DNA from: Lepisosteus oculatus
Taxonomy: Eukaryota > Chordata > Actinopteri > Semionotiformes > Lepisosteidae
Reading direction: 5' to 3'
Assembly (NCBI RefSeq): GCF_040954835.1
Contig: NC_090714.1
Coordinates: 3,646,501-3,710,500, forward strand
Length of the DNA stretch: 64,000 bases
The notes beneath the pieces are model-generated. The model was given only the letters and a program-made list of their open reading frames with translations. It made no database searches and had not been told where the DNA came from. Numbering within the stretch: position 1 is the stretch's first letter; every line of letters starts with the position of its first letter. The translations under genes and the position numbers were made by a program. Of this stretch, positions 7,216-55,100 are shown in pieces.

Positions 7216-8174
7216 CCCCTGGTGCGAGTGTCTACCCTGCGAAGAACCAGGAAAACAGATGGATTTATTCTTCTTTCTGTACCAAACCTCCAACCGAAAG
7301 CCGACTGCTGGATTTAAATAGAGCGTGTATAAAACCCGCTGTACATTCAGCTTAAATGCTAAAACGTCCTGAAAGAAAAACAACTTTGAGGTGGAGAAAA
7401 GATGAAACATCAAGACGGATTTTTGGAGGGGAAAAATATCTGAGGTGAATCTCCAGCTCATTCCTCACCTGCCTGTGCCCAGAATAACATCAGGCTCCTC
7501 GGGAAAAATGAAAATCAAGAACCGCAAGAGCTTCCTGTGGGGGTTTGATGTTTGGCGGGGAGGGAGGGCCTTGCTGAAGAGGACAGCCTGCTCTCAGGTT
7601 GTTCGCTATTCCAGTTTCCATGGCAACTAGGCAGAGGCTCAACTGGCAACAAAACAGAGAAAGAAGGGAAAAAAATAGACCTGGGATAATTATATCAGGC
7701 GCTGTAATGGAAGGGTTATGTTTCCATTTAAAAAGCAAACTGGGAATGACAAGCTACTCTGCCTTTGAAGGCTCCCTATTCAGATGAAGCATGTTAATAT
7801 CAATGTGGGCCTGGCGCGAATTTGGATCCTGCCACAGTACATCCACACTCATAATAGGTCCCGATTATCCCCGAACATCAGGAAGACCACAGAGGGAAGG
7901 CTGGCCATTTGGTCCTTCGAAGTCACCTGGTTTCTGATCCTCAAGAGCTCTGCCTCGTCGAACTGTCTCTCGGCAAAACACCTCCCCTGCCAACGAGGTG
8001 TTAGAAAGTGCAGAATCTACGTCAAGGGACTCTTTAAAACTGAGCAAAACAGGAGTGATAGTTCATTACCAGTTTGGTCACCAGGTTACAAAAAAAAAAA
8101 GACATCGCAGCTCTGGGAGGAGTCCAGATGCATTCCTAGGCTCAAAAGAATGAAGGAAAATGAAGTCTTATAAA

Positions 8175-25071: not shown

Positions 25072-25452
25072 TCACAGGGGGCAGTGCTCTGAGCTGAAGG
25101 AGCCCCCCTCCTTCTTTTTCCTCCTCTTCCTCTTGTGCACCTGCCAGCAGGCCGTGGCCATGGCCAGCAGGGCGAGCCCCATCCCCAGCAGCACCACGGA
25201 CACCACCTTGGCCTGCTGCAGGTTGTTGAAGTAGAAGGTGACGCCCGTGCCCGCCACCCCGATCACCAGCGAGATGACGCCGAAAGGGAAGATGCAGCGG
25301 TACCAGGACTTCTCCGCGCCCCCCGTGGCCTGGGCCAGCCGCTCCAGGGTGGAGAGGGGCTCGGGGGGTTTGGGGGTCCCATCTGAGGCGGCATCCTGGG
25401 CTTCTGGGGCCTGAGTCTGCCGGCAGGCCAGAGGTCCGGACTTGCAACCCAT
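25072..25452 (-). CDS. TMEM100-like small two-pass membrane protein, single coding exon
   Basis: 126 residues. Residues 1-40 are a P/A/Q-rich head beginning MGCKSG. Near residue 42 starts TGGAEKSWYRCIFPF, the counterpart of the TMEM100 signature TGGTELSCYRCIIPF. Two hydrophobic helices follow (about 55-77 and 83-102), joined by a short loop with FYFNN, then CWQV and a basic tail HKRKRRKKK. In mammals TMEM100 acts in BMP/ALK1 vascular signalling and modulates TRPA1-TRPV1; whether this relative does is unknown. The start at 25452 has G at -3 and +4; a longer frame to 25542 would add 30 residues unlike the family. The N-terminus differs from TMEM100, so this is probably a paralog. Myristoylation at Gly2 and palmitoylation at Cys3 are possible. 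Confidence 0.82.
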   Translation of the reverse strand: MGCKSGPLACRQTQAPEAQDAASDGTPKPPEPLSTLERLAQATGGAEKSWYRCIFPFGVISLVIGVAGTGVTFYFNNLQQAKVVSVVLLGMGLALLAMATACWQVHKRKRRKKKEGGSFSSEHCPL

Positions 25453-26867: not shown

Positions 26868-27325
26868 CTGATCAACTGCCTCCCGATGTGTGTTTCTCAT
26901 GATCAGAGGATGTGATCAGACACCTCCTGATGTGGTGTTTCTGATGACCAGAGGATGTGATCAGCTGTCTCCCGATGCGTGTTCCTGATGATCAGAGGAT
27001 GTGATCAGACGCCTCCTGATGTGGTGTTTCTGATGACCAGAGGATGTGATCAGCTGTCTCCCGATGTTTGATCCTGATGATCAGAGGATGTGATCAGAGG
27101 ATGTGATCAGATCAGAGGTGTGATCAGCTGTCTCCCGATGTGTGTTTCTGATGATCAGAGGCTGTGATCAGACGCCTCCCGATGTGGTGTTTCTGATAAT
27201 CAGAGGATGTGATCAGCTGCCTCAAGATGTGGTGTTTCTGATGATCAGAGGATGTGATCAGCTGCCTCAAGATGTGGTGTGTCTGATAACCGGAGGATCT
27301 GATCATCTCCCTCCAGTTGTTGTGA
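26868..27325. repeat. 44/45-bp minisatellite with alternating unit types
   Basis: About ten head-to-tail units built on tgatcag-(N)-cctcccgatgtggtg-tttctgatgatcagaggatg. Units with cagacRcctc alternate with units with cagctgtctc or cagctgcctc, giving a higher-order period of about 89 bp in the first half. Short TGATCA palindromes recur in each unit. A 45-bp unit keeps a reading frame open, but no gene is evident. Confidence 0.9.
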
Positions 27326-27329
27326 CTGG

Positions 27330-29540
27330 GAAAACCAGAGAATCAACTTCAGGTTCATCAGCTGCTGCAGAAACCTACCAAGAGACTTGTACCTGACAGC
27401 TCAGGAGGTGGAGGGGAGGAAGTAATGTATACTTTATCCATAACACACTACCGTACATAAACAGATACAAAACAGTTGAGTGGCTATCTTAACTGGACAT
27501 TAGCACAGTAGTGTAGTAAATGCAACCAGAAGTGTATCCAACAGAAGCAGAATTATTGACTGGAGCACTTTGATTTAAAGTGATGCGACAAACTTGCGAT
27601 TTTGCCTCTGCAGTGCACAGTTCATAGCAAGGGCCTGTTTCAGAGGTGGGTGAAAATGTAATTACAAATTGCCTCTGTGCCTCCATAACTGTACAAAGTC
27701 ATACCGGTATACAATTTCATTCCAATAAGATTCTATATCTAAGTTCTCTCATTTCCTATTCCCCAATTTCTGAATATCTATTCCTTGCAAGCACAATACC
27801 CCCGCTCCCAGAGAAAGATATCAGTACCCATCAAAATCAATACATATTCATGTTTCGGAGTATTGCCTGGCACTACTATAAAATGAGCAGCCTTGATTAT
27901 AAGAGAACGTGTATGAGACACCAAGTGGAACTGGCACAAACACACCATGCAGGGCCTGACATGGATGCTGGGATTTGTCCCACAAGCTCTAGAAATCTTG
28001 TGGCAAACTGAGCTATTGTACAGTGTTGTGTGTGTGGTGAAGTGTATTCTAATACTGCCAAGTGCTTCACGACAAAGATGGAAAAAACACAGCCCTTTTA
28101 GCTTGTAACAGATCTAAAGCGTGATTATGCGATTGTCTGCATGTTTTCATCTTAACAGAGTGAAAGGTGGGTGAGTAAGACTGCCTTCTGAATTAACAAA
28201 GGCAATTTTTCCTCACCGGGAGCTCACGGCGTAAAGTCACCTAAGCTTCTTGCGTTTTAAGTGTTTCCATTTTCTCCCTCCCCAGTTCTCAATGTCGTGA
28301 CTGAAGCTGTCCCAGAATTACAGGTTTAGGAGAGAAACACAATTTAATTAATGGTCACGATGACTCAACACACTCTCCCTTCAGTGAGGAAAGTAAATTG
28401 CATCTTTATTGATGGCTGCTGTTTCCTGTGTTTACACTATATTATGTCACCAGCTCGGGAATCTTAAATACCTCATTCATGCCGCAGATGGGATCTGATG
28501 CCAAGGAAGGCACATTTTAAGGCACATTCAATTTCAAACAGCACGTATTAAGGGAAGAGCAAATAGGGAAACTGGTGATCAATCAGGTTCCAAAAAGCTG
28601 TCCGCTACAATGCACGATTGCACAAGCTGTTACAAACCAGACCTAATTAGTCTGAGGATTTCTTCACTCCTGTTGCAAACCCAAAAAAGGTTAACAGGAG
28701 AGGTTTGTTATTTGTTTTGGGATTACTGTGGTTGCAAGTAGCTCAGTTATATATGTGTAACACGGGTCTCGTTCACAGAGACTCCATTACGATGATATTA
28801 CACTCCCGGGCATTTAAGAACATTAAACTTCCCCACATCAGGAAGCAATATGGCGCAGGAACAAAAAGAAATGCCTGAGGTGGTGGTCTGACCACACATT
28901 CTACACCGTAACTATTCTAAATCCTGGCTCATCAAGATATCATTTACTGTGTATGGTATATTCAGTGTGTGGGCCATCACGTCATGGAAAAACCCTGCAC
29001 AAAAACTCCTGCTGGATTCCTTTAAATGTGCTGTGGGATTTCTTTAGGAATTGCAGAGGAAATCAAAGTTTCCTGCAAGCCAGGTACAAGGACACATACA
29101 GGATCCATGTAAAATCGCTGTTAGTTTACAGGAATCCAAATAGATTTTGGTCCCCAAATGGTGCAGGATGAACTTTATTATTCATGATAAAACTGCAAGC
29201 CTTTTTGAAGGCTTTTTTTTAAGGCTTCCAAGTCCCACCTGCGTGAACAGTGTGAGTGAAATAAAGTAGTGAAAGTACTGAAATAAAGACCCATAGTGGA
29301 CATATGAGGTATCACTGCATCCTCGGAGCTGCAATGCCAAGTTTAAATCAGAGCGGTGTTTCCCAACAATAGCCTGAACTTTGCAAACAAGAAGGCAGCC
29401 AAGCTGCTGCTGTTGCTTATGCAGAAAACCCTTTTTGCCCCGTCTTTACTGTATTAAGAACGAGGGGCTATTGGAAGCCAGTTTCATCTGAGAAAATCAT
29501 CCGACCATTTCTGGAAAGGGACAGTAACAGATTCAACAAC
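27330..29540. other. No gene seen
   Basis: Between minisatellite and LINE. The open frame at 27646-28011 has no domain. Unique-looking AT-rich sequence at 28.3-28.7 kb could hold noncoding elements. Confidence 0.4.
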
Positions 29541-34844: not shown

Positions 34845-34991
34845 TTAGTCGGGCTCATCGTCCAGTACTAACGTGGGAAACGGCTGTCCCCCCTCACCCA
34901 GCAGGGAGTATAGCCCACGGAGCACAGCTGGGGCGGGACGTCCCGAGGACAGTGCGGACTGTAGCCAGGGGGTCAGCTCTTCACCCATCAC
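34845..34991 (-). CDS. tedc2: TEDC2 coding exon 10 with stop codon
   Basis: 147 nt including TAA (34847-34845), residues 422-469: VMGEELTPWLQ, LYSLLGEGG, LDDEPD. It matches the human C-terminus (LMAELLPL, HSLLCEGG, RDEPAV). Acceptor ctgcgcag. Confidence 0.94.
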   Translation of the reverse strand: MMGEELTPWLQSALSSGRPAPAVLRGLYSLLGEGGQPFPTLVLDDEPD

Positions 34992-37900
34992 CTGCGCAGA
35001 ACAGGTAGAAGGAAGACAAATACTTAGTTATGCAAAAGGACTGTCTTATGCAGCAGGCCGGTCTTTGTGGGGAACGGTATGAGATCCGATCTGCCACTAG
35101 TAGCCGTAAATCATCTGTTATAAATGGACACAGGGGGAGAATTAGATTGCTGATGGACATGAAACACACCCTCATGGGGGTTTGATGAATGTACAATATA
35201 GAGAGGTACAGATCACCAACCATATACAAGATCTCTAAAATACAGGGGTGTGCACTCAGCACCTCCTCACCCATCTTGTTGTCACATTGAAAAAATAATT
35301 CGAATTTTAAACTCTTCATGCGCTATACAGCCATTGATACAACCATCCAAACAAACGTTAAACCAGTATCACTAGTTTTCATGTCAAAAGGTGTTGACTT
35401 TTTAATAGAGCTCACTGCCGGCAGTGACATCGGTCACTGCACATTAATTCAGGTTTTTTTTTTGTGTTTCCAAATTGGTTTTCTCTGCAACCAGACTCTA
35501 CCACACTACATCTTTTTGGAAGAGTACAGTCTAGGACTATAATATTTCCTGATATAGAGATTTAGCGGCAAGGAAACCCATGATGACTACTACCTTCTGG
35601 AGATGGATCTGTTGCTGCAGGATGTCCACTCTGAGTCTCAGCCCTTCAAGCTCTCTCAGCTCCTTTGCAGAAGAGTAACTTAGGACTGGAGGGGACAGAG
35701 CTCCAGCACCTTTCTGTCCCCAGAGCCTCCACATCTTCACTGGACAGTGATCACCAGGAAGAAATCTCTCCCAGGCGTCCACCGCTGCAGAGAGGAACAC
35801 ATGGCTGTCAGATCTGCTTTCACTCTGGGCCAGTCGGTCCTAAAAACATGATTTAGTAAGAAGAACTCCCTTCCTCTCATGTGAACTCAAATATCTTATT
35901 CCCAGATCTTCCTAGAGTGTTATGTCAACACGGACTCTTTCCGACTCCATTGTGTAAGCATGGCTCTTTTCCGGGTCCAGCCTCTAGCACTGGGACAAAC
36001 ATACCTTCCCTCAGCTGGTCGGTTCGCTGAAGAAGCCCTGAGGAGGTCTCCATGAGGCCTTCCAACATCAATAGACTCTCGTACTCCCTCTCCCACCTGG
36101 AGGGACCTGCAACCACACAGCGAGAGAAACATGTCTCCGCAGGACTCGTTTCTTAATTTTAATTTTTTTTCGATTTAATTCTTTGAGCCCATCGAGAATA
36201 TATTCTTGTGTATAAGGGCAACCCTGAGAGTACCTATTTCTACAACAGGACATACACTGGAGCTAAATCAGCAGCAGCACTGTCACTCGGAGATCTGAAC
36301 CCACAAGTCTCAGGGGTCTGGTTTTCAAAATGCATCCAGCATTTTCTTTTTGGATGAGCAAGGCACTATTGAATTGACCTCTTTTAGAAAAACGCACCAA
36401 CTACCTAACTAAAGCTCTATTCTCTACAGTACAGGTAATTAGTGCTGCTATGTTCGCTGGGCCTAGACTAGTTTGCAGGATCTCGACTGTTACAAAAAAG
36501 AAGGCTAAACTGTGTGGTGTGCCAGACATGACTGTGGGTATTTCTCGGTCAGAAGGAGCTCCTTGAATTTTTCCATGATCTGGCTGCTGCAAAAACATGC
36601 ACCGAAGCTCGAGTCGCAACCTCGAGATATTAGTCCACAACTGTGAGCTTGCGCACCAATGTACACCTCACGAAAAAGAAAGCAAACAGTGTAAAACTAT
36701 ACTGACCTACTGCACGATTTTTTTTTAATAACGAAGCACCTGGTAACTTCTGCACTAAAAATCTGTGACTGCATGTAAACGTTAATAATAAAATAAGAGC
36801 TTTCAAAGGCACGTGAATCCAGGTGTACACTAACACTCTGGGGGAAGCCCATTCTTCATGAGAGAAATGGCGTCTCGAGCACCCTGAAGCAGTTCCAGTC
36901 AGGCAGTCGACCCCCCCCCGACCAGGCGTCCTAACTCTGCCCCCCGGTATCGGCTCGCCTGTGCTGTCGGTGCGCTGCTCAGTCCGCCAGCACTGCGCGA
37001 GGTCAGAGCACCGTCCCCGGAGGCTGGAAACCTCATCCTGCACGTCAGCCAGACTGCGGGAAGGGACCTGCGGGTGGAACTGCCGAGAGCGTGTCAAGGA
37101 GACCACAACGCACAAGGAAGGGCGATCCCCCGCCGGAAGCCTCTGTCCGGCATGATTTAGTCTGGCTTAGAGAAATTAAAAAAGAAACTGAAAGCACTAA
37201 ACAGTGAGGGCTTATATATATATTTTACTTTATGTATACTTTATATTAAAAGAAATAAATCAGTAGAATGGGTCAAATATAAGAACAAAAATCACAATGG
37301 CATTAATACGTCCATTCTTATTTTCTAACCAGTATTTAAAATTCTATGTGAAGAAATCATCACGTGGATATTTCTATCTTTTACATCTAAGAAGTCTCTC
37401 CTAAGTTGGTCATTCGCCCTTGACTAACCTTCTCATTAAGGGCTTCAATTTGAAAGTACTCCCTAGAAGGATTCAGTGTTTTAAATTCAGGATTTGCACA
37501 CTTCAGGTTTTAGAATCATCTCCCCGTTTCCATAATGCAACAGCATGTGAGAAGGACTACACGATCAGTGTGAACTAATTGAAATGGTGGAAGGCTGTGA
37601 TGATTCCAGGATCAAAGTCCTGAGAACAGTACAGAACATCTGTTTATAACAAAAGTCTACGCACCACTTTAGTGTAGCCAACTACTTAGATAAAAAATAT
37701 ATCCCCTGAAATTTTATTTTTGATTAGTATATTTGTCTTCATAGTAGAGAGATGCTTGATAGTCTAAATGCACTGAGAATTCACATATACTTTGCACAGC
37801 CACTGTTAAAAACATATATGAATGTTTGTAAATGTTGCTTTTGTTTGCAATACATACTTAATTGAAAGCTGGGCTTTGTCATTAGCTGACTGGCGCTGCT

Positions 37901-40900
37901 TGGCATATTGTGGGCATTTTAGCAGGTTTTTGTTGCTGGCGTGGCTAGGCAGAGGTTGGAGTTGGCAGTTTGCGATGTGTACCTATATACTGTCTAACAA
38001 CACTGACTCCTGTGGACTGTCAGGAGCTTGAGAGCTTGCAGTATAGTCAGCGTCGGCAGCCGTGGTCCTCCATGCGAATCTAGATCTGCTGTGAGGGTGC
38101 TGGGAAGCTCAGAGTGTGAAGACATTACAGATGACGGTGCACCTTTTGCAGAAAGGCAGATCAGTTGTTCCAGATAAAGGATACAGTGCTCTGTAGTCTC
38201 TCCATGAATTGTGTCTTCTCTGGCCCTGGGTTGGCCGATAATGTGGACACTCTCTTCCACAGCCTGCAATGAAGAAAACAGTCAGAGGTTCAACTCCTAG
38301 ATGCCCCGATTTCTGCAATTAAAAAATATATATACTTAGTGAGTATCAAAAGAAACATTTAACTATTTAGTTCGAGTAGGCAGCTGTGTCAGCAGGCAGC
38401 AGGCATAGTCTGCAAAGAAACAAGTAAAGGTTTATTCCATGCTGAAAAGAGAAGAGAAGAAACACGTTTCGGCTGTGGAACCTTCATCAGGCTAAAGAAC
38501 ACACCTGAAGAAGGCTCCACAGCCGAAATGTGTCTTTTCTTCTCTTTTCAGCATGGAATAAACATTTACTTGTTCCTTATTTCACTCTTTATGCATGTGT
38601 GTTTCTAGAAATATTATTCAGATTTTGGATAGTGATTAAATCCTGGGACATTTTGATTAACTGAACATTCATGATTGATCCTAGCACACTATCAAACACT
38701 ACATTTCTTACAGAACTACTGAGCCACCTCCTTACAGGAAGAGAGTTAATTTGGGCAGAGGTGATGTGGTGAATTACCCTGTTCAGAGTAAAGCCTGGGA
38801 CACACAAGACAGAATCCGCAACCTGGCACAAAGCAGATCTAAGCAGATCTTAGTTGGAAGCAATACCAAATAATACATAACTGCTTATGTAAATTAACAT
38901 ATTGTGGCATTTTCCCTAGGTTTTCAGCAACTGAACCACCTGCCTCTTTTTAACAATAACAGAATTAGCACGATTCACACATCCAAAAATGCTTTCATAA
39001 TACATGCGTGTACAGTTAATCAGAATTATAATACATATAAAGCTGAACAACTGTAGAGGTGACCGAAATACATCTAACATCCTACCAATGACAGATAAAA
39101 TGACTAAATATTTTGAAGAAAGCTGGTATCTGTTTCCTCAGATTTACGGTGTACTAATCCCCTTGTTAATCCTCTCTCTGAGAGGATAGAACACGTTATC
39201 TGCATTTTATCGTCTTCTTTCCCAGAGATGCACTGGTGCAGCACGGGAGACAAGGTGTCAATTAGGTAGAAGGTGTTCTGGCACATTCCAGCAGACACCA
39301 GCCTCTCCTGAGCCAATGTGTGCCATCGCCGGGAGCCTCAGGCACAGGCCCTGAACAAGCCAGGAGTCCACGCCACATCCTTGCAGGACTCACCCTGGAG
39401 TCCGTAAGCTTTAATCACATTCTTATGAAGGAATATCTGAACACACTGACCTGCACTGTTTCACCCTCTGCTGTCTCCAGACTGCAGGGAGCTGTAGGGA
39501 CTGCCTGCAGACGAGAACAACAAACCCCAGTGTAAGACAGGGATGGGTAAAGAACCCTGTTGCTGGAGAGCCACAATCCAGCAAGTCTCACAGGTAGGCC
39601 CTGGTCTTGATCGCATGACCTTCAAGGCTCCTACCCTGTAGTTCAATCAACATCATTTAGGCATCTCTGTAGGCACTCTAATCACAGCAATCATTAAGTA
39701 ATCAGCATAGGAACTGTGATTAATTCAACAATTAGAAACTTCATATGATGAGTTTAATTGGTGCAAATCAATAAATTGGTGCAATTAAAGTAGATTAACA
39801 ACTGACGTGTGAACTACATCAAAAATGCATTTCACTGACAATGAGAACAACATTATCCACCTTGTGTACAGTACACTGACAGACTGGACTAAAAAAAAAA
39901 GTAATAAAAGACTGATACAAAACGAGACGAAAACCACAAAAACTAAAGGCCGAGACTGACAGTGGTGAGAGGGAGCCCTCTGGGAAAAAGGAAAAAGAAA
40001 GCTGGAATACCAGCAGGCTGTAACGTGCGATTTGACCGAGTTCTTGGTCTGCCCTAATAGCCTCCCGGAAAAAGTCGACCATCTCGAGACAGCTGCTTTT
40101 CTGAACCAATAATTTCTACAGCAAGAAGAAGACAATCTACACACGGAAGGCAGTACACTGGAGTTGAACCCGGGAATCCTTTGATGCCACGGCGCTTTAT
40201 AACGATGACAGCTTTAAAACAATTCAGGACTCTAGACTGAACTCTTATTTTGTAGGTATTCCTACACTGTAATGGCAAAGGACAGTCGCAGAAGGAGCTG
40301 GCCCTTGATTGATGGCCGGTGCTGTGACAAGGCTGCTCATCAGTATGAGAGCCGATTGCTGTATGCAAGCACACACATTACATAAAAAGCAGCAGTGCGT
40401 AAGTGCCCAACACACATCGTACGAGTCCTACCCATCCTCTTTTAGGGTGAAGGCGCGCTTGTCTCCTGGTCTCACCGAGGAGCCTTCCTGCCTCTTCGGC
40501 TTCTCTGGAAACTCTCGAGAGCCCTGATGGGCTCCTAAGGCCTCCAGGCTGACCGCAGCCCTGCCCAGCTGAGCGCCCTGGCCCTCCCTGGGCGCGGGTT
40601 GTTGAGAAGTGGACGGCGCCCCCTGCTGTCCAGTGGGCTGCTTCATCTTCCCGGAAGCAGCCCCCTTGACCTGTCGGCCCACCCGGCTCGGCTGTGTAGA
40701 GGGGGCCAGCCCCCTGCCTTCTCTGCGAGGCCCAGCGGACGAGGACTTCTTGGCGTCTCGCAGTTCCTTCTCTGACCCGCTGTGGCCTTGTCTTGCCCTT
40801 TGACCTGTGATGTCACCTGGTGCCAGCTGGCTCCGTTTCTCCAGGTGCCCAGACTCCTTCTGCAAGGCAGCACTACGGACCCGCCAGGCTCTCTCCAGCA

Positions 40901-42303
40901 TTCTTTCCACAAGCTCCATCTCCTGCCTCTCTTCCGGCACAGGGTCAGGATCTACACCGGGATCAACATGCACTCCTGCTAAGACTGCTGACACCAACCA
41001 ACCACACGCAACCCTGATTCATTCCGATTCAGACCAGACATCCACATCACTGTTCTGATGCCTGAGAATTCATTTTGGACAAAGAACCGCTATGTAATTT
41101 GCATACCACATTGCTCTTAACTCTCCCACATACTGAACAATGACTATTGCAATGTCAGGTTCAAGAGCAGCAGTTTTGCAATAGACCTGATTAGTGTAAC
41201 AACATAATGTCGTTCAGTATCATTGACAGATACAGTGCAGGCGTCAGCGTACCTTCTTTGACCACTGGAGCTGAAACTTCCTTGGGGTCATCTTGCACCA
41301 CGTTTCTCCTGCACAACAGCGTAAGCCATACAGTTATTGACAAGAGAGGATATACCTACGACTAACTTGCTCACTTAACAGCTCTGCAGACTTAACCAGC
41401 CATCCATTCTCTAACTGCTTTATCAAGCTCTGGGTCACAGAAGGCTCCAAAGCCAAAATGTTGTTTCCTTTCTTATCAGCATGGAATAAACCTATTACTT
41501 GTTCCTTTCCAGCCTTCGCATGCTGATGCAGCTACCCACCTGAACTACATATAGACTCCATTACACATGGATAAATACTCCTTGATTCGTGACTTGATTA
41601 GTGTTGGTAACTATTGCATTCAGTATGGCCTTTTTTGAAACTCTAGAAATAATAAAAAAAAAAGTTTCACGAGGCTCACCAGGGCTGCAGCAACCTCCTG
41701 CACAGACAAATACTCTCTTGCAACCTCTCCTCCTCCTTCTTGCATTGCTCGATGGCTCGGCTGATCTCCCTCAGTGACCTGAGACACACAAGAGTCAGAA
41801 GTCATCAGTCTTTACAGGTGATAGATTTGCACACGTACCAACTCCTGGTCAAAATATAGCAGGCCGCGCTGGATTAAAAATATATATATATATATCCCCC
41901 CCATAACACACCTCATCAAATGATTTCTTACATTTAAAAAGCCCTTTAAGTGAATGAATGTTGCAATGGCAACTGAAAACGAATTCTCTTTCAATATGGG
42001 TAATGCATATCACGGTACAGGTACATAACTCTATACAGCTTTTATTGCCGTGACTGTAAACGACAGCAACCGTCTGCAAAAGCCTCAGCACAACAGACTA
42101 CCAGAACCGAAACCGCTTTTTGGAGTTCCCGGTGACTTGGTGAACTAAAAAAGCCATGCCTCGGAAAACTCAGCAATGAGAATACTGAACGAGACGACCG
42201 TCACGTTGCCGTCCGCAACTCGGAAGACGAAATGCTGTAGAGGTTGTGCGTTTTGCGAAAACAAACTTCCCCGCCGTTTGACTGACCTGCCGGCCGGCTG
42301 CAT
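34845..42303 (-). CDS. tedc2: TEDC2, tubulin epsilon and delta complex protein 2 (complete, 10 coding exons)
   Basis: Centriolar protein. In mammals TEDC2 works with TEDC1 and delta- and epsilon-tubulin to make and stabilise centriolar triplet microtubules. Coding exons, 5' to 3' on the minus strand: 42303-42287, 41778-41680, 41308-41253, 40975-40432, 39504-39451, 38263-38185, 37079-36959, 36106-36005, 35784-35594, 34991-34845. They join in frame to 469 residues plus TAA; human TEDC2 has about 430. Landmarks shared with mammals: MQPAG start, a coiled coil ending LCRRLL (residues 6-38), a low-complexity basic middle (exon 4), AFTLKE, KTQF, REYESLLMLEGL, YSSAKEL followed by QQQIHLQK, and a C-terminal SLLGEGG...DEPD. 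The ATG at 42303 is the first in frame, has A at -3 and aligns with the human start. Intron 6 is U12-type and intron 7 is probably GC-AG. It is head to head with CFAP70. Identity is secure; the least certain boundary is the exon 7 end. Confidence 0.93.
35594..35784 (-). CDS. tedc2: TEDC2 coding exon 9
   Basis: 191 nt, residues 358-421, with a variable start then LSYSSAKELRELEGLRLRV and QQQIHLQK, nearly identical in pattern to human YSSTQELQTL and QQIHLEK. Acceptor ctctgcag, donor AGAAG|GTAGTA. Confidence 0.95.
36005..36106 (-). CDS. tedc2: TEDC2 coding exon 8
   Basis: 102 nt, residues 324-358: GPSRWEREYESLLMLEGL and a following helix, the most recognisable TEDC2 block. Acceptor gttgcag, donor GGAAG|GTATGT. 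Confidence 0.93.
36107..36958 (-). other. tedc2: Probable GC-AG intron (TEDC2 intron 7)
   Basis: Donor ACAG|GCGAGC is a good GC-type site: strong exon-side match, A and G at +4 and +5. It gives the required phase 1 join to exon 8. The nearest GT site with the same phase (36922-36921, GTCGGG) is weaker and would insert unconserved residues. Confidence 0.65.
36959..37079 (-). CDS. tedc2: TEDC2 coding exon 7
   Basis: 121 nt, residues 284-324, with SLADVQDEVSSLRGRCSDL, a helix matching the mammalian region before PMDWMQEY. The acceptor cggcag sits 14 nt past a U12 branch point. The best donor is GC: ACAG|GCGAGC, which alone gives both the needed phase 1 and the expected length. A GT alternative at 36922-36921 would add 12 residues. 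Confidence 0.78.
37080..38184 (-). other. tedc2: U12-type intron (TEDC2 intron 6)
   Basis: The donor GTATCCTTT (38184-38176) matches the minor-spliceosome consensus RTATCCTTT at all nine positions and is a poor U2 donor. The branch-point motif CTCCTTGAC (37101-37093) matches TTCCTTRAC at 8 of 9, with its A 14 nt before the 3' splice site, inside the narrow U12 window. There is no long pyrimidine tract. The intron lies between codons (phase 0). Confidence 0.9.
38185..38263 (-). CDS. tedc2: TEDC2 coding exon 6
   Basis: 79 nt, residues 257-283, containing LWKRVSTLS and EKTQFMERLQST (mammal LWAQLSS and KTQFLQNMQTA). Acceptor ttcattgcag. The donor is the U12-type ACT|GTATCCTTT; reading past it meets an in-frame TGA after eight codons. 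Confidence 0.92.
38419..38575. mobile_element. Foldback MITE-like element with two inverted arms
   Basis: Left arm 38419-38490 and right arm 38503-38575 are near-perfect inverted copies (aacaagtaaaggtttattcc / ggaataaacatttacttgtt; cggctgtggaacc / ggctccacagccg) around a loop of about 12 bases. It lies in TEDC2 intron 5, just upstream of exon 6. No coding capacity. Confidence 0.85.
39451..39504 (-). CDS. tedc2: TEDC2 coding exon 5
   Basis: 54 nt, residues 239-257, reading GQSLQLPAVWRQQRVKQC. It aligns residue for residue with the segment after AFTLKE in mammals (LRLPAAFRKAASQ). Acceptor ctgcag, donor GCAG|GTCAGT. Phase 2 in and out. Confidence 0.88.
39537..39620. repeat. Dispersed repeat in TEDC2 intron 4
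   Basis: ggatgggtaaagaaccctgt, then ctggagagccacaatccag. Related strings occur near 45008-45120 (catcctggtcccggtggacc) and 54520-54595. The family is not identified. Confidence 0.4.
40136..40197 (-). repeat. SINE head remnant in TEDC2 intron 4
   Basis: acacacggaaggcagtac and ggagttgaacccgggaatcc: the inverted B-box end of the tRNA-headed SINE. Confidence 0.5.
40432..40975 (-). CDS. tedc2: TEDC2 coding exon 4 (large, low complexity)
   Basis: Residues 58-239. It starts with a conserved helix (EMELVERMLERAWRVRSAAL), runs through a long S/Q/P/R/K-rich, probably disordered stretch, and ends in AFTLKED, which matches the AFTLKE motif of mammalian TEDC2. Donor GATGG|GTAGGA. The acceptor is a tandem TAGCAG, so the exon may also start at 40978 with one extra Ala. 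Confidence 0.92.
41253..41308 (-). CDS. tedc2: TEDC2 coding exon 3
   Basis: Residues 39-58 (56 nt), a poorly conserved acidic linker beginning WRNVVQDD. Acceptor tgcag, donor GAAG|GTACGC. It is placed mainly because its phases fit both neighbours. Confidence 0.8.
41398..41508. repeat. SINE tail joined to one foldback-element arm
   Basis: 41398-41438 has catccattctctaactgc (SINE tail); 41439-41508 has gaaggctccaaagcc and cagcatggaataaacc (foldback right arm). In TEDC2 intron 2. Confidence 0.65.
41680..41778 (-). CDS. tedc2: TEDC2 coding exon 2
   Basis: Residues 6-39, an amphipathic E/K/Q-rich helix ending LCRRLLQPW that matches the mammalian N-terminal coiled coil. Acceptor ctcag, donor CCTG|GTGAGC. 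99 nt, phase 2 in and out. Confidence 0.92.
41879..41897. repeat. (TA)n microsatellite
   Basis: About nine TA units in TEDC2 intron 1. Confidence 0.9.
42287..42303 (-). CDS. tedc2: TEDC2 coding exon 1
   Basis: 17 coding bases: MQPAG plus two bases of codon 6. Donor GCAG|GTCAGT. No ATG lies upstream in this frame. Confidence 0.85.
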
Positions 42304-42898
42304 GCTGAAGCGAGCCGAATGAAGGACTCCGTCCCGCCGCCCGTCGGGCACAGGCCGCTGTAGGTCCTGCTTGCACTTCGCTAATATCCGGTGCTGTGCA
42401 ACGGGGCAACGCTTCACGAACAATTTAAATCAGACTCTTTGTGCGTGTGTGTCCCGGTGCCCGAGGCAGCACTGCCGTGTTGAGCTGACTTGTACAGGGC
42501 CTTTGTTTATTTTTCGAAAGCGTGACATCGAGCTGCCAGGACCTCTTCGTCAGTTACCGTTGCTACAACACGGAACCTGCACGAACTTTAAAATGGTTGA
42601 TGCACAAAAAATACCTTCAGGGGAGTAAGAGCGTATTGGGCGCTCACCATTACTGTGTATAAATATCAATGATATATTATTGCAAATATAAATATTACTG
42701 TCAAAAATAAATAAATAAAAAACTGCCGTGCCCACTTTTGGTAATATTACCGCTCTTTTCAACTTCCAGTTAATTAGCGCGAGTTTCTCCGTCCCGATTT
42801 CCTACAGTTTGAAATGTAATTTAATTATACATATTATACTATAATCTAACTGTCGTTTGAAAGAAATTAGAAAGTTTTGCTTTTACTTTTTCACAAGA

Positions 42899-42906
42899 TC
42901 TCGCGA
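42899..42906. promoter_or_regulatory. TCTCGCGA core-promoter motif
   Basis: Eight bases of the TCTCGCGAGA element common in TATA-less and bidirectional vertebrate promoters, 12 bp before the X-box. Confidence 0.55.
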
Positions 42907-42917
42907 TGTGATGGCCT

Positions 42918-42931
42918 GTAACCACGGCAAC
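42918..42931 (+). promoter_or_regulatory. RFX X-box
   Basis: GTAACC-AC-GGCAAC fits the X-box consensus GTNRCC-N(0-3)-RGYAAC at every position. RFX factors with FOXJ1 drive ciliary genes through such sites, usually close to the promoter. It lies 166 bp before the CFAP70 ATG. Confidence 0.8.
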
Positions 42932-43096
42932 CACAGACGCCATAACTTGCTCGTCTTCAGCTGCACAAGCAGAAGGAAAACACTTCCAGCATTGCTACAA
43001 GCGGGCGGAAAATTATAGCCTCTTTAAACAGAGTCGTTTCGCTGTGCACCGAAAGACAGCGAAGATTTCGTTGTGCGCCTTGCCTTATTTTCACCC

Positions 43097-43171
43097 ATGG
43101 AGCAGTGCCAGGCGGGTGGCGTTCAGATCGCGGTACCTGTCCAACTCACCGTGTTGCGAGGCAGGAATTTG
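43097..43171 (+). CDS. cfap70: CFAP70 coding exon 1
   Basis: Residues 1-25, [20 protein letters not shown] then RGRNL. Donor TTTG|GTAAGG, phase 0. The start aligns with human MEQ. Confidence 0.93.
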
Positions 43172-46100
43172 GTAAGGCTAATTGATATGGATGGTATGAC
43201 AAGAAAATACGAGATTTGGGGGGCTGACGTGCCCAGAGTTTATTCTAAAACGAGGAGCCATATCACGCAGCTGCATTAAATTAATACAGCAGACGCGAGC
43301 TAGTTTGCTTTACTAGTTATGAACAGTGAGTGAGTCTTGTCACAGAATTTCCCAGAAACACACTAGTCATTCAGCTAACACATTCCAAGGTTTAAGTTTT
43401 AAATCCCAATAAAAAATAGGGATATTTTGTGGATACTGTAATAACAGTACCTTTTTAATTCTTTCCCAATAATTACTTCAATCAGGTAAATTAAGATCAG
43501 AGTAGACATCAACAGTAAAGAGTCTTGGAGGACAAGAGCTGGTCATCCTTGGTCTAAATCCTTTTATTATAGGACCTATTTACTGATTCCTCATCAGCAT
43601 AAATCTCTGCTGTGTGGTGTCAAAGGTGACACATACATCAAGTGTCAAACAATGTCTTTTATTAGTTTTCTCTTCTAACACAGCTACAAATCGAGGAGAT
43701 AAAATATAAAATCTGTGCGTGTTGTACAAAATTGATCCAAAAATGTAACTTTGTCAAATGGCTCTATAAGCGTCTCCTTACTATCTCACAGAAAGGTACC
43801 AAGGGAGAGTCTTTGCCCACCTTCGTCAGAGCTGAGTTCAATGGCTCACAGCTGGGGGACTCTCAGAAGCTCGAGGCCGCTCCAGGGTCTGAACAGGGAG
43901 TTGAGTACAACTTTACCTGCAGCTTTGAATGCACAGAAACAGGCAACACACTTGATGACCTGGCACAAAAACCTGTCCTCTGTGAGTGCTGTGCAGTTTG
44001 GACATGATTTACTCACAGTTTTTTTTAGATTTGTTTATTTTTACATTGGCAAATGCTGTCAGAGCAGTGACATTGTCTTCCTTGTACTGTATGCATGCTG
44101 GTCACAGTAGCTTTGGTATTTTCATGTGGTTGGATACTTGTAGTAGTGCTGTAGCTGTGAACAGTAGTATTCATAGTGAGCTATTGTTACTATCTCAGTG
44201 ACAGAGAAAGTTGACCTAATGTCAATTAAAAATTCACATGCATAATGAAGGTGATTGAACTACACTATGTCCCAGATGGGTCTTAAAAACACAGCTTCTC
44301 GAAAGCTCGAAATGTTGGGGTGATTATAAAATGTTTCTGCATTGCTTTAGTATGGTTAGTTCTTGCTCAACAAACAACATTGGCAATGTGTGTTGAAACA
44401 TAGACATGGCAGCCCAGCAATTCATTCAGTACTATCTATTGGTATGTAGGTCAAAGCATGTTTTTCCATTCCCCCACAGTTTTGTAACACTGTCTGGTGC
44501 TTGTTAGAAGCTAGACAATGTGGAGCGAATTGATCACTCACTCCTTCGTCTTCACAGTGACCCTTTTTGAAATCTTGCCAAAGGAGAAGAAACAGAAAGA
44601 AGAGAAAACTGTTGTTTTGGGCCAGGCTGCTGTGGACTTACTGCCCCTGCTACATGGTGAGTGGAAAAGTACCTTATTATTTTTGGGGTCATTATGCATT
44701 TTAAAGAGGAAACATGCCAGTGTCTTAAAGTATATTATACTATTAGCAATTATTAGAATTACAGAGAATCAAGAGCTGTTGATTAAAAGCTGCTGGAAAC
44801 AAATCAGCTTAAGTGGAGCGTGTGAATTATCTTTTTACTTTAATAACAAACATTAAAATCAGCAGGTCTGTGTTTTACGCTGTCCATAACAAGTTCACTT
44901 CATCCTCCTAAGGTTCACTAGATCTTTAGAAAATAGTCACGACTGTTATAAGGTCATTCCAACCAAGTCTTTCAGCTCATCAGATCTTAATTTCCTCTGG
45001 ACTAAATCAGGGGTGTTCCATCCTGGTCCCGGTGGACCCAGTAGTGTTTTGGGGTTTTCACTGTGCCTCAACTCTTAACAATGTAAATCTTCCTATTACT
45101 GGCCTAACTGGACCAATTAAGTAACATATTCCACCTCTTTGTGTTTTAAAGAGATTTAGAAAACCTGCAAATACTCCAGCTTGTCAGCTGGGATTAGACA
45201 GCTCTGCAGTTATGACCATAACGGATATATTTTATATAATGGACCAAGAATTATCGCCTTTCTCAATCTCTGTCAATCTCTTTCCCCTGTAGGTCAGTAC
45301 ACGTTCACCACGACTGTAATATTGCACCCAACAGCAGGTTCATCAGCAGAAGTATCCACTCTGGAGGGAACGAGTAAGGTAAGGGGAGTGTACCCACAGT
45401 CTGTCGTGTGTCAAATGAGCCCTAACAGAAACTCCAACAATACGATTCCTTTGTTCAGCCCGATATACTATATTTTTTCAGGAAAAACACTGTTTGTACA
45501 GGTGAGCTTAAAATTCCACTTCACGGCCTCTGCTTTTCTAGTCATGTTCATTTGTTTAATGAGAAGTTTGTTTTCATAGTGCGTGTCTGGTATTATCAGT
45601 CTTTCGAAACGACTGAGGGGAAAAAAAATGAAACTTAAGCGACTGCAAGGGTTCCACAGTCACAATGCCCTGTTTTAAATATCTTCAGAAATCCCACTTG
45701 CATTTCTTAGGAAGTAGTCATAGCTATGGCACATGTAAGCACCAGTCTCCAGTAAGTCTGTATGGGGGCTGCTGCTCTGCTTGAGGCTGTGGATGAGCCC
45801 AGTGTGTGAAATGTTGTATCTGCTCTCCTTGGCACAGCCAGCATTGGATGTGGCCATCTGTGTTCCAGAACCTTTGCTCTCCGATGCTCAGCTTGCAGAC
45901 TCCAATCTGCTGAAGGTGGCTGTTGAAACTGCCTACTCGGTCCCTGAAGTCTGGAACCTGGCAGGTCCTGCGTTCAACTGTGTGGCTGCCCTGCAGGTTC
46001 CGGTGACAGCTGAGGTGAGACTCCCGCTGCCCAGCGGGGCCATCGCCGACCAGACAACTGCATTATGACAGGGATGAAATATCAAAGGGACACTCAGGGC

Positions 46101-52100: not shown

Positions 52101-55100
52101 ACTTGCACATGAGGAGCACATTTGAAATGTAACATTGAGACAGAGACTGTGCCTAACGTTTCCGTCCCTTCTTTTGATGTGTTAGATGTATGCAGAAGCC
52201 AGAACCTACGTGGTGATTGAGATAGCGTTAGACAAACCCCTGGTTCCAAAGAGACCACCAGAAGAGCTTGCCAAGAGGTACTGCCAACTGCAATAGTCTT
52301 TAAAATGACAATCTCGCTCTAATGGTGTCAGTGGTACCTAATACTTACAGCATGTTTGTGGACCTACTGGGGAGGAATTATGTTAACGTTTAGTTCAGAA
52401 TATTTAATAGAAATCTGAACAAAAAGGGCAATATATCGGACTGGATCATAAGGAAAAACTCATAGAACATATATTGTGTATTTTTATATATATATGTATT
52501 TTTTTTAGCCTCTACTCATCCATTGTAGGTAGGTTGGTGACTCAAAACTGCAGCCTATTTTAAATATTTGAAAATCAGAATCTGTTAAAGAGCCTGCATA
52601 CACAACTCTTTGTTAGATCAATACAACCCTAATTCCCCCTTTTCTAACTCTTGAATCTCTACTTGTGTCCGTCTAAAGCCTGCAAACAAATCGGTTCTTC
52701 TGTGTGTGATATAAGCTCTGCTAATGGGATGAGTACACGCTTGCCGTGCTTCAGTATAATTTGTGTTCTCTGATCAACATTTTGTATGAGGAGCTCAAGG
52801 AGCTTTTTTTTGGGTACAGTGGGCCTTAGGAGCCTCTTATAGCATTTTACATGTCCTTGATTGGTATTTGCTCATAGCTAAAGGGATTCAGTATTTTTTA
52901 AAAGATTAAAAAGACCTGAAACATTGGCTTGATATCTTTTTAAAAAATGTCTCATGTGCCCGTTGCAGAGTAGCAGAGCTGATTCCTCCTCGGCCTCCCA
53001 TGCCTCGTCGTCTTGTTGGAGCAGACAGGGTAAGTGACTCGTTAACTCTTTTCTAGAAGTAATTTCCTTGGACGTGCCTCCACAGTCCGATACGGATCTT
53101 CAAGTTCCTCTGCACCTTGTACACTAAGTACCGTATATAGAAACAAAGACTGTTAAGGCAAACCTTATCATCATTTTTTTTTGCCTAGTAGAAACTCTTA
53201 ATGTAGTTTAGGTTTTGGAAATACAGCTTGAGACAGCACTTTATATGGAATTGACCTGACATGTTTTATAAGACCCTTAGCTTACATTTGGATCTTCTTT
53301 CTTTCATTGTTGTTGCCATCAGTCTGAAGTGAAGGCCAGAAGAAGTAAACTCAGTGATGGATCATTTTCTCATGCTGTATTTGAACTTGAGGTTCAGTGT
53401 TGCTTATGTCTTCAGCTCCCTCTTGTGGTTACTGAATGAAAGGCCATATATCCCAGTCACTTGGATGTTGTTGGACCTCAACAACACCATCAATGATGTA
53501 ACACACTGATCTCAAAATGTCACGGATGAAAGAAAGGCTCAAGATAAATTTTATTTTTTAAATTCCATCTTCAAACAGGACTTTCCCTAAATCAATTTCC
53601 AGATTTTATTATATCCTTGCTTCCTAGTGCAACAAGCAACAAGATCCATAGAGTCTAGGTTTCATTCTACATCGTAGGGACAGAAATAATGGTTCAGATA
53701 TGTATAGTTTTAGACAGTGTGAAATTTAGCGGTGGAGTCTTTGAGTTACGTGTACAATTAGAATAAGACTGATCTGGGTTTTTATGTGGGGTCAGAGTTA
53801 CCCGGATTTTTAACTGGTCTGAGAACAGAGAAAGACATTGAGAATTAGTGTTACACTTAAGGTTAGCACCATTAACTGAATATTGTTACTGCTGATCATA
53901 TGTGGTCATAGTTACGCTATCTGTGACCATCACAATAAATAGACTTGTACGTTTTTGAGATAACACTGAAGTAAAATGCTCCCAAATCAAATATTTAAAT
54001 TGCCCACATGGGATGCTGCATTCTTGTGGATCTTTACGAATTGTTTTTGTGGCTTCCTTATGAATAAAATATTCAGATCTAATTTAATGATAACTCATGG
54101 CAGGGAGAGGCAAATGATGCAGGAGGCAGCAGTACTGTTATTATTCTGTTCATAGGTACAGATAGTTTTGTGCTTATGAGGTTTATAAATAGCCCAGGCT
54201 ACTGAAGGGTTATTGCATGCCGGGAGCAGCTCTCTGAATGCCAGATGGCAATGCCAGGGGTCACGCTGTTGTTGTTTCAGCTCTAGGTTGGAACAGGCTT
54301 GCTAATTTCCTTGGATGAGAGATTGAAAGCCCACCTTCTAAGGGAGCTTTATTTAGCACGTTGATTGATGCCAAATAATTCTGCGGTAATGGAGGTCATA
54401 TTGGGGAAAAAAGTCCATTTTGACACTGTAGTACACTAAAAACGAATGACATTTATGTATTAAATGTATAAACGTTATGTATTATGCTGAATGTGATTTT
54501 AGTGGGAGATGTTCCAGCAACACACCTGAATGAAAGCAGTTCTTCTGAAACTGAGAAACTGGTGCAGGGTTGATACCAATTACAAATTCCTTTGGTGTTT
54601 TTAAGAGCTGAAAGTAAAATTATAAACTTGCACCAAACATATTAAGATTAAGAACTGGTGCAGAAACCAGAAGCTGTTCAAAGACCAAGGCTGTGAACAC
54701 CTGCTCCAGGTGATTCCAAGCAACTAAAGCCTTACTGCAATGATTTGCCATTAATCCCTGTATTTAAGGATTAATCTCAGTCCCAGTTTCTCAGACCGGT
54801 TTTTAAATCTCGGTAACAAACTATGAGAAAGTACTGTAGGTCACCATGTTGTTGAGAGTTCGCGAGAATTGTGATGTGAAGCGGCCCTTCCTGCTCACTA
54901 GTCACTCTAATGACTAATGTACTGTGATGTACGAGCAAATAAGTACAGGTCTGCTGCATCACATTTCACCACAGAAATGTTCCAACGTGATCTGCATGCA
55001 GAGTTAACAAGCAAGTTGTATTTGTCAGCAAAACTGTCTCGGACTCGAGAGCAATATTTTATATGTTGGTCTAAAAGAAATGTATTCACAAACCTGCTTG

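Follow-up and report, generated by a model that had tools for sequence, protein, structure and literature searches.

A putative divergent promoter with a cluster of X-box-like sites at the starts of TEDC2 and CFAP70 in Lepisosteus oculatus

Introduction

In Lepisosteus oculatus the genes TEDC2 and CFAP70 face away from each other across a short intergenic stretch, which raises the question of whether both are served by one promoter and, if so, which sites in it would act on the two genes. A head-to-head pair is defined as two divergent genes whose transcription starts are separated by less than 1 kb (PMC4089025). Head-to-head promoters bound by RFX2 have been reported, many of them belonging to ciliary and mitochondrial genes (PMC10362062), and an enrichment of RFX motifs in the promoters of multiciliated-cell genes is described for frog, human, mouse, zebrafish, fly and a cnidarian (PMC5245798). 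For human X-boxes, the region from -500 to +500 of the transcription start is given as a robust window, and most of those in proven targets are found no farther than 500 bp upstream or downstream of that start (PMC5838959, section 9). A first-pass annotation of the window, by which we mean the whole stretch of 64,000 nucleotides analyzed here, had proposed that TEDC2 and CFAP70 share a head-to-head ciliary promoter with a perfect X-box.

Results and Discussion

TEDC2 and CFAP70 are divergent neighbors

Exon joints were worked out for exons 1-3 of TEDC2 and for the first three exons of CFAP70 (Table 1). TEDC2 is encoded on the minus strand with its ATG at 42303, and CFAP70 on the plus strand with its ATG at 43097. 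The spliced TEDC2 protein starts with MQPAGR-SLREISRAIEQCKK..., and three late pieces of this gene in the window, joined in order, match profile positions 141-284 of PF15764 (DUF4693) with an E-value of 3.7e-32; we take this family to be TEDC2 (C16orf59). Since this was the single PF15764 match in the genome, TEDC2 is present in one copy in the searches made. Comparison of the TEDC2 pieces with the PDB gave no convincing match.

CFAP70 was recognized by four separate queries that are collinear with PDB chain 9ijj_k (Cilia- and flagella-associated protein 70) and cover its residues 11-115, 329-372, 508-591 and 972-1035. The first three exons joined matched this chain with an E-value of 1.4e-29, and further matches to it, in the order of the chain, came from open frames at 47.7, 55.4 and 62.2 kb. 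A genome-wide search with the N-terminal part found a match at this locus only, and one CFAP70 piece each compared with prokaryote and viral collections gave no match.

The two gene identities proposed in the first-pass annotation are upheld by the PF15764 and 9ijj_k matches, and its claim of divergent start codons 793 bp apart proved exact to the base. An assembly join artefact between the genes is unlikely because the window contains no N and lies inside a contig of 17.87 Mb (C19, of which it covers 3646501-3710500). With the start codons at this distance on opposite strands, transcription starts inside the gap would qualify the genes as a head-to-head pair.

Table 1. Coordinates of genes, promoter features and motif sites at the TEDC2-CFAP70 locus (positions in the window)
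Feature	Position	Strand	Remarks
Intergenic stretch, putative divergent promoter	42304-43096	.	exactly 793 bp between start codons
TEDC2 gene, coding part	34848-42303	-	exons 1-3 spliced frame, PF15764 match, later coding pieces down to 34848
TEDC2 exon 1	42287-42303	-	GT donor follows
TEDC2 exon 2	41680-41778	-	spliced frame open across exons 1-3
TEDC2 exon 3	41253-41308	-	spliced frame open across exons 1-3
CFAP70 gene, coding part recognized in window	43097-63165	+	four queries collinear with PDB 9ijj_k
CFAP70 exon 1	43097-43171	+	GT donor follows
CFAP70 exon 2	from 43792	+	
CpG-undepleted island over both starts	42000-43299	.	from CpG o/e bins; GC-poor middle 42600-42899
X-box GTAACCACGGCAAC	42918-42931	+	zero mismatches to GTNRCCN2RGYAAC
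X-box-like GTAGCAACGGTAAC	42553-42566	-	one mismatch, 14-bp form; 249 bp upstream of TEDC2 ATG
X-box-like GTTGCCGTCCGCAAC	42205-42219	+	one mismatch, spacer 3; TEDC2 intron 1
X-box-like GTCACCGGGAAC	42125-42136	-	one mismatch, spacer 0; TEDC2 intron 1; judged weakest of the six
X-box-like GTAAACGACAGCAAC	42056-42070	+	one mismatch, spacer 3; TEDC2 intron 1
X-box-like GTTGCAATGGCAAC	41960-41973	+	one mismatch to full palindrome GTTGCCATGGCAAC; TEDC2 intron 1
TCTCGCGA, 8 of 10 bases of TCTCGCGAGA (CGCG/Banp) element	42899-42906	+	
Forkhead-like RTAAAYA core	42504-42510	-	42 bp from TEDC2-proximal X-box-like site; weak

One CpG island covers both gene starts

A CpG-rich island common to both genes is frequent, although not obligatory, in head-to-head pairs. 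Here, the observed/expected ratio of CpG (CpG o/e) is at least 0.87 in all 12 overlapping 200-bp bins from 42000 to 43299, compared with 0.44 on average and 1.02 at the 95th percentile for the window, and the merged CpG island extends from 41901 to 43400. Both gene starts thus lie in one CpG-rich island without CpG depletion. Undepleted CpG is typical of DNA that escapes methylation in the germ line, and the island at 42000-43299 is probably unmethylated.

The middle of the island is GC-poor (bins of 0.30-0.35) and holds 7-8 CpGs per bin, which makes CpG o/e noisy there. It splits the island into two GC-richer parts and could separate two independent promoters, which counts against a shared one. 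The main rival explanation for this locus is a pair of back-to-back promoters without functional sharing, in which RFX would drive CFAP70 from about 42900-43100 and a housekeeping or cell-cycle promoter would drive TEDC2 from about 42100-42500. That TEDC2 helps to build centrioles in human cells in culture (PMC11896610) fits this explanation as well; however, CpG depletion is absent across the GC-poor middle too. We regard two separate promoters as possible, if on the doubtful side.

X-box-like sites are clustered around the start of TEDC2

The X-box consensus used was GTNRCCN0-3RGYAAC. Its sole zero-mismatch match in the window and in the surrounding 164 kb (the window plus 50 kb on either side) is GTAACCACGGCAAC, just where the first-pass annotation had located a consensus-perfect X-box. 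This site is separated by 165 bp from the start codon of CFAP70 and by 614 bp from that of TEDC2, a position that would suit an RFX-driven CFAP70 promoter separate from that of TEDC2. As a single site it exceeds chance weakly and is suggestive only: among 2000 dinucleotide shuffles of the 793-bp gap, 19 contained a perfect match, and for the whole window 0.77 perfect matches are expected and at least one was found in 55 of 100 shuffles. Across the genome (1.2 Gb, 813 contigs) the consensus has 6999 and 6969 matches on the two strands, compared with 4257 and 4352 for a reversed-pattern control, and the genome rate of perfect matches is about 0.9% per 793 bp.

Measured against the full palindrome GTTGCCATGGCAAC, the perfect X-box has three mismatches, and the sites at 41960-41973 and 7614-7627 have one each. 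With up to three mismatches the palindrome is found at six places in the window, where 3.39 are expected and 8 of 100 shuffles contained as many. The site at 7614-7627, GTTTCCATGGCAAC, is far from any recognized gene start.

When spacers of 0-3 and no more than one mismatch were allowed, the window contained 20 distinct sites, six of them within 972 bp (41960-42931). Four of the six are in intron 1 of TEDC2, one is upstream of TEDC2 and one is CFAP70-proximal; all lie 81-614 bp from the TEDC2 ATG, and five are nearer to it than to the CFAP70 ATG, which argues against two promoters of which RFX would drive only that of CFAP70. Six sites were reached in none of 300 shuffles of the region 41900-42950 (mean 0.42). 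These bounds were chosen after the sites had been seen, a fault from which the whole-window test is free, and there six sites per 1 kb were reached in none of 40 shuffles (largest number in any 1 kb: 5). For the 14-bp form alone, three of the seven sites in the window belong to the cluster, and none of the 300 local or the 40 whole-window shuffles equaled this. Inside the 793-bp gap the excess is modest, with two distinct sites (three strand matches) and as many in 3 of 200 shuffles.

The cluster is also the densest 1 kb in the 164 kb. Among the 21 CpG-rich islands of this region, the island studied here contains six sites and the other 20 contain seven in total (0-2 each), although many of these control islands, which were chosen on CpG content, may be something other than promoters. 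In the shuffles as in the island comparison, X-box-like sites exceed the expectation based on composition. We dropped the reading by a single box in favor of the cluster, since a perfect site occurs in about 1 in 100 stretches of 793 bp and the cluster was unmatched in shuffles. The first-pass proposal of a shared promoter thus stands as regards the presence of an X-box-like site, and its single shared box is replaced by six sites, five of which are nearer to TEDC2. A CpG-rich divergent promoter with a cluster of RFX sites fits the locus better than one shared box. What speaks against a shared promoter is that one site only is perfect and the other five have one mismatch each, and the sites with spacers of 0 or 3 may fail to bind RFX.

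Could the motif matches and the gene adjacency be meaningless? About 10% of genes belong to head-to-head pairs (PMC4089025), so that the layout as such is ordinary, and the frequency of perfect X-boxes in shuffles of the gap and of the window would agree with chance, as would the incomplete copy of the CGCG element described below. The cluster statistics (shuffles, density in 164 kb, 20 other islands) contradict this explanation, which we consider very unlikely.

The CGCG element is incomplete

In bidirectional CpG-island promoters, the CGCG element TCTCGCGAGA is reported to drive transcription both ways in reporters (PMC6192621). The locus resembles these promoters in having TCTCGCGA, which the first-pass annotation had rightly seen at 42899-42906, inside a putative divergent promoter rich in CpG; its distance to the CFAP70 ATG is 190 bp. 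It differs from them in that this is a single, incomplete copy: the full TCTCGCGAGA is absent at 42899, where the sequence reads TCTCGCGATG with the last two bases different. The window holds two copies of TCTCGCGA, where 0.36 are expected and 6 of 100 shuffles contained as many; one of them is in the gap, for which 82 of 5000 shuffles of the 793 bp gave a copy. With up to two mismatches, TCTCGCGAGA has 12 sites in the window and 13.95 are expected, so such copies are no commoner than chance. As evidence for a promoter TCTCGCGA is weak, and it was downgraded from a defining part because it has 8 of 10 bases and copies of this quality occur at chance frequency. The second TCTCGCGA of the window is at 54860-54867 on the minus strand, between recognized coding pieces of CFAP70.

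Other promoter motifs were scanned by consensus in 41900-43150. This region contains one CCAAT, two GC boxes, two TTTGAA, two TATAWA (138 in the window), one palindromic TTTCGAA that matches on both strands, and six MYB motifs (YAACKG; 88 in the window), some of which overlap X-box-like sites. No match to the consensuses for E2F (TTTSSCGC), NRF1, ZNF143, ETS or the E-box was found there. The forkhead-like core RTAAAYA is weak evidence, with 51 matches in the window and five in the scanned region, and the scan for Inr was unspecific. Searches for repeats, tRNAs and Rfam families at the promoter revealed none beyond short AT-rich direct and inverted repeats.

RFX may act on both genes through the island

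We propose, with moderate confidence, a divergent promoter in which one CpG-rich island is bound by RFX at several X-box sites and both genes are raised. Transcription from the island of about 1.3 kb, probably unmethylated, would run leftwards into TEDC2 and rightwards into CFAP70, each gene having its own start. Several X-box sites of the island would be bound by RFX proteins, the strongest candidates being those at 41960-41973, 42553-42566 and 42918-42931. Binding would raise both genes in cells that form many centrioles and motile cilia, or in those forming sperm flagella; on balance, we expect that RFX binds the island and has this effect in cells that make many centrioles and cilia.

What is reported about the two genes would suit such a role. 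An older name of CFAP70 is ttc18. In zebrafish ttc18 morphants the cilia of Kupffer's vesicle are shorter and fewer, a result for which the authors advise caution on morpholinos (PMC6522010). Loss of TEDC1 or TEDC2 in human cells leads to centriole defects like those caused by lack of delta- or epsilon-tubulin (PMC11896610). With this role in the centrioles of human cells in culture, TEDC2 is not necessarily a gene for motile cilia.

The proposed promoter is not of a new kind, and its type of arrangement is already known elsewhere. It is like the RFX2-bound head-to-head promoters (PMC10362062) in its divergent genes, a putative common promoter region with RFX-type sites, and ciliary function; RFX2 binding was measured there, whereas the pair described here is known from its sequence and is not known to be linked in human. 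With the RFX/X-box promoters of multiciliated-cell genes (PMC5245798) it has X-box-type sites near the start of an axonemal gene in common; unlike those, several candidate sites are spread over 1 kb here, mostly on the side of the centriole gene. If the proposed promoter is real, position ties a gene that centrioles need for their triplet microtubules to a gene of the axoneme, and a single island bound by RFX could determine that basal bodies are made first and axonemes after them.

CFAP70 is displaced relative to human

To the left of TEDC2 we found a TMEM100-like gene and then CCNF, recognized by its F-box and cyclin pieces (PDB Cyclin-F, E 5e-17; next best 2.9e-6). To the right of CFAP70 are a DUF4662 gene, a heme oxygenase gene closest to HMOX2 (E 1.2e-80 versus 2.5e-64 for HMOX1) and a gene for a DnaJ-domain protein, presumably DNAJA3. 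In human, CCNF, TEDC2, HMOX2 and DNAJA3 are all located at 16p13.3, and CFAP70 has DNAJC9, FAM149B1, ECD, NUDT13, a P4HA gene and MRPS16 as neighbors at 10q22. In L. oculatus, contig C4 carries DNAJC9 (PF23302, E 2.8e-24), a FAM149-type gene (PF12516), ECD (PF07093), a NUDIX gene that we take as NUDT13, and a P4HA gene. CFAP70 itself was not found on C4 by tblastn of five CFAP70 pieces against ten C4 loci (86.7 kb); the lone match, of 18 residues with an E-value of 0.082, was taken as chance. MRPS16 is on a third contig, C28, apart from the C4 block, so the human CFAP70 block is not whole here anyway. No ANXA7 was seen by eye in the 30 kb around MRPS16.

Because TEDC2 lies near CCNF and HMOX2/DNAJA3-like genes and the neighbors known for human CFAP70 are on other contigs, it is CFAP70 that differs in place from human, whereas TEDC2 has stayed with its group. 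The first-pass annotation had described the two genes as unlinked in human. This holds in the narrower form of a displaced CFAP70 whose neighbors are split between contigs here; linkage was read in one genome, and the order seen in it may be ancestral or derived. A partial literature search found no mention of a TEDC2-CFAP70 linkage in titles or the beginnings of abstracts.

CFAP70 may have moved, alone or with a small segment, from the DNAJC9-FAM149B1-ECD neighborhood to the upstream flank of TEDC2, or in the reverse direction toward human, and the junction may have been kept because the RFX-site cluster drives both a centriole-building and an axonemal gene. Such a regulatory merger at a rearrangement breakpoint is a tentative idea that we think rather unlikely. 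The displacement would also agree with an explanation in which the TEDC2 start is the RFX-rich one and CFAP70 came alongside, so that the cluster would act primarily on TEDC2 and reach CFAP70 because it is close. The four sites in intron 1 of TEDC2 and the one 249 bp upstream fit this order of events, but the sole perfect site is on the CFAP70 side and CFAP70 may have brought its own X-box, and we judge it improbable.

Several other features of the neighborhood were observed. The TMEM100-like gene is at 25096-25443 on the minus strand, between CCNF and TEDC2 (PF16311, E 2.4e-34); human TMEM100 is at 17q22, and this gene may also be out of place relative to human. The DUF4662 gene (PF15578; L008:6446-7165, minus strand) lies between CFAP70 and HMOX2, and no paper on the domain name was found in a partial literature search. 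The C4 block at 28718001-28806000 consists of SPARC-like, NDNF-like, DNAJC9, FAM149-type, ECD, dual-specificity phosphatase, NUDIX and P4HA genes. A tandem array at 26869-27324 is built of units of about 44-45 bp and multiples; open frames at 27124-27396, on both strands, overlap part of it. Furthermore, a near-identical open frame of 64-77 amino acids occurs three times at L008:7854-8967 on the minus strand, with upper ends 461 bp apart, as a local tandem repeat.
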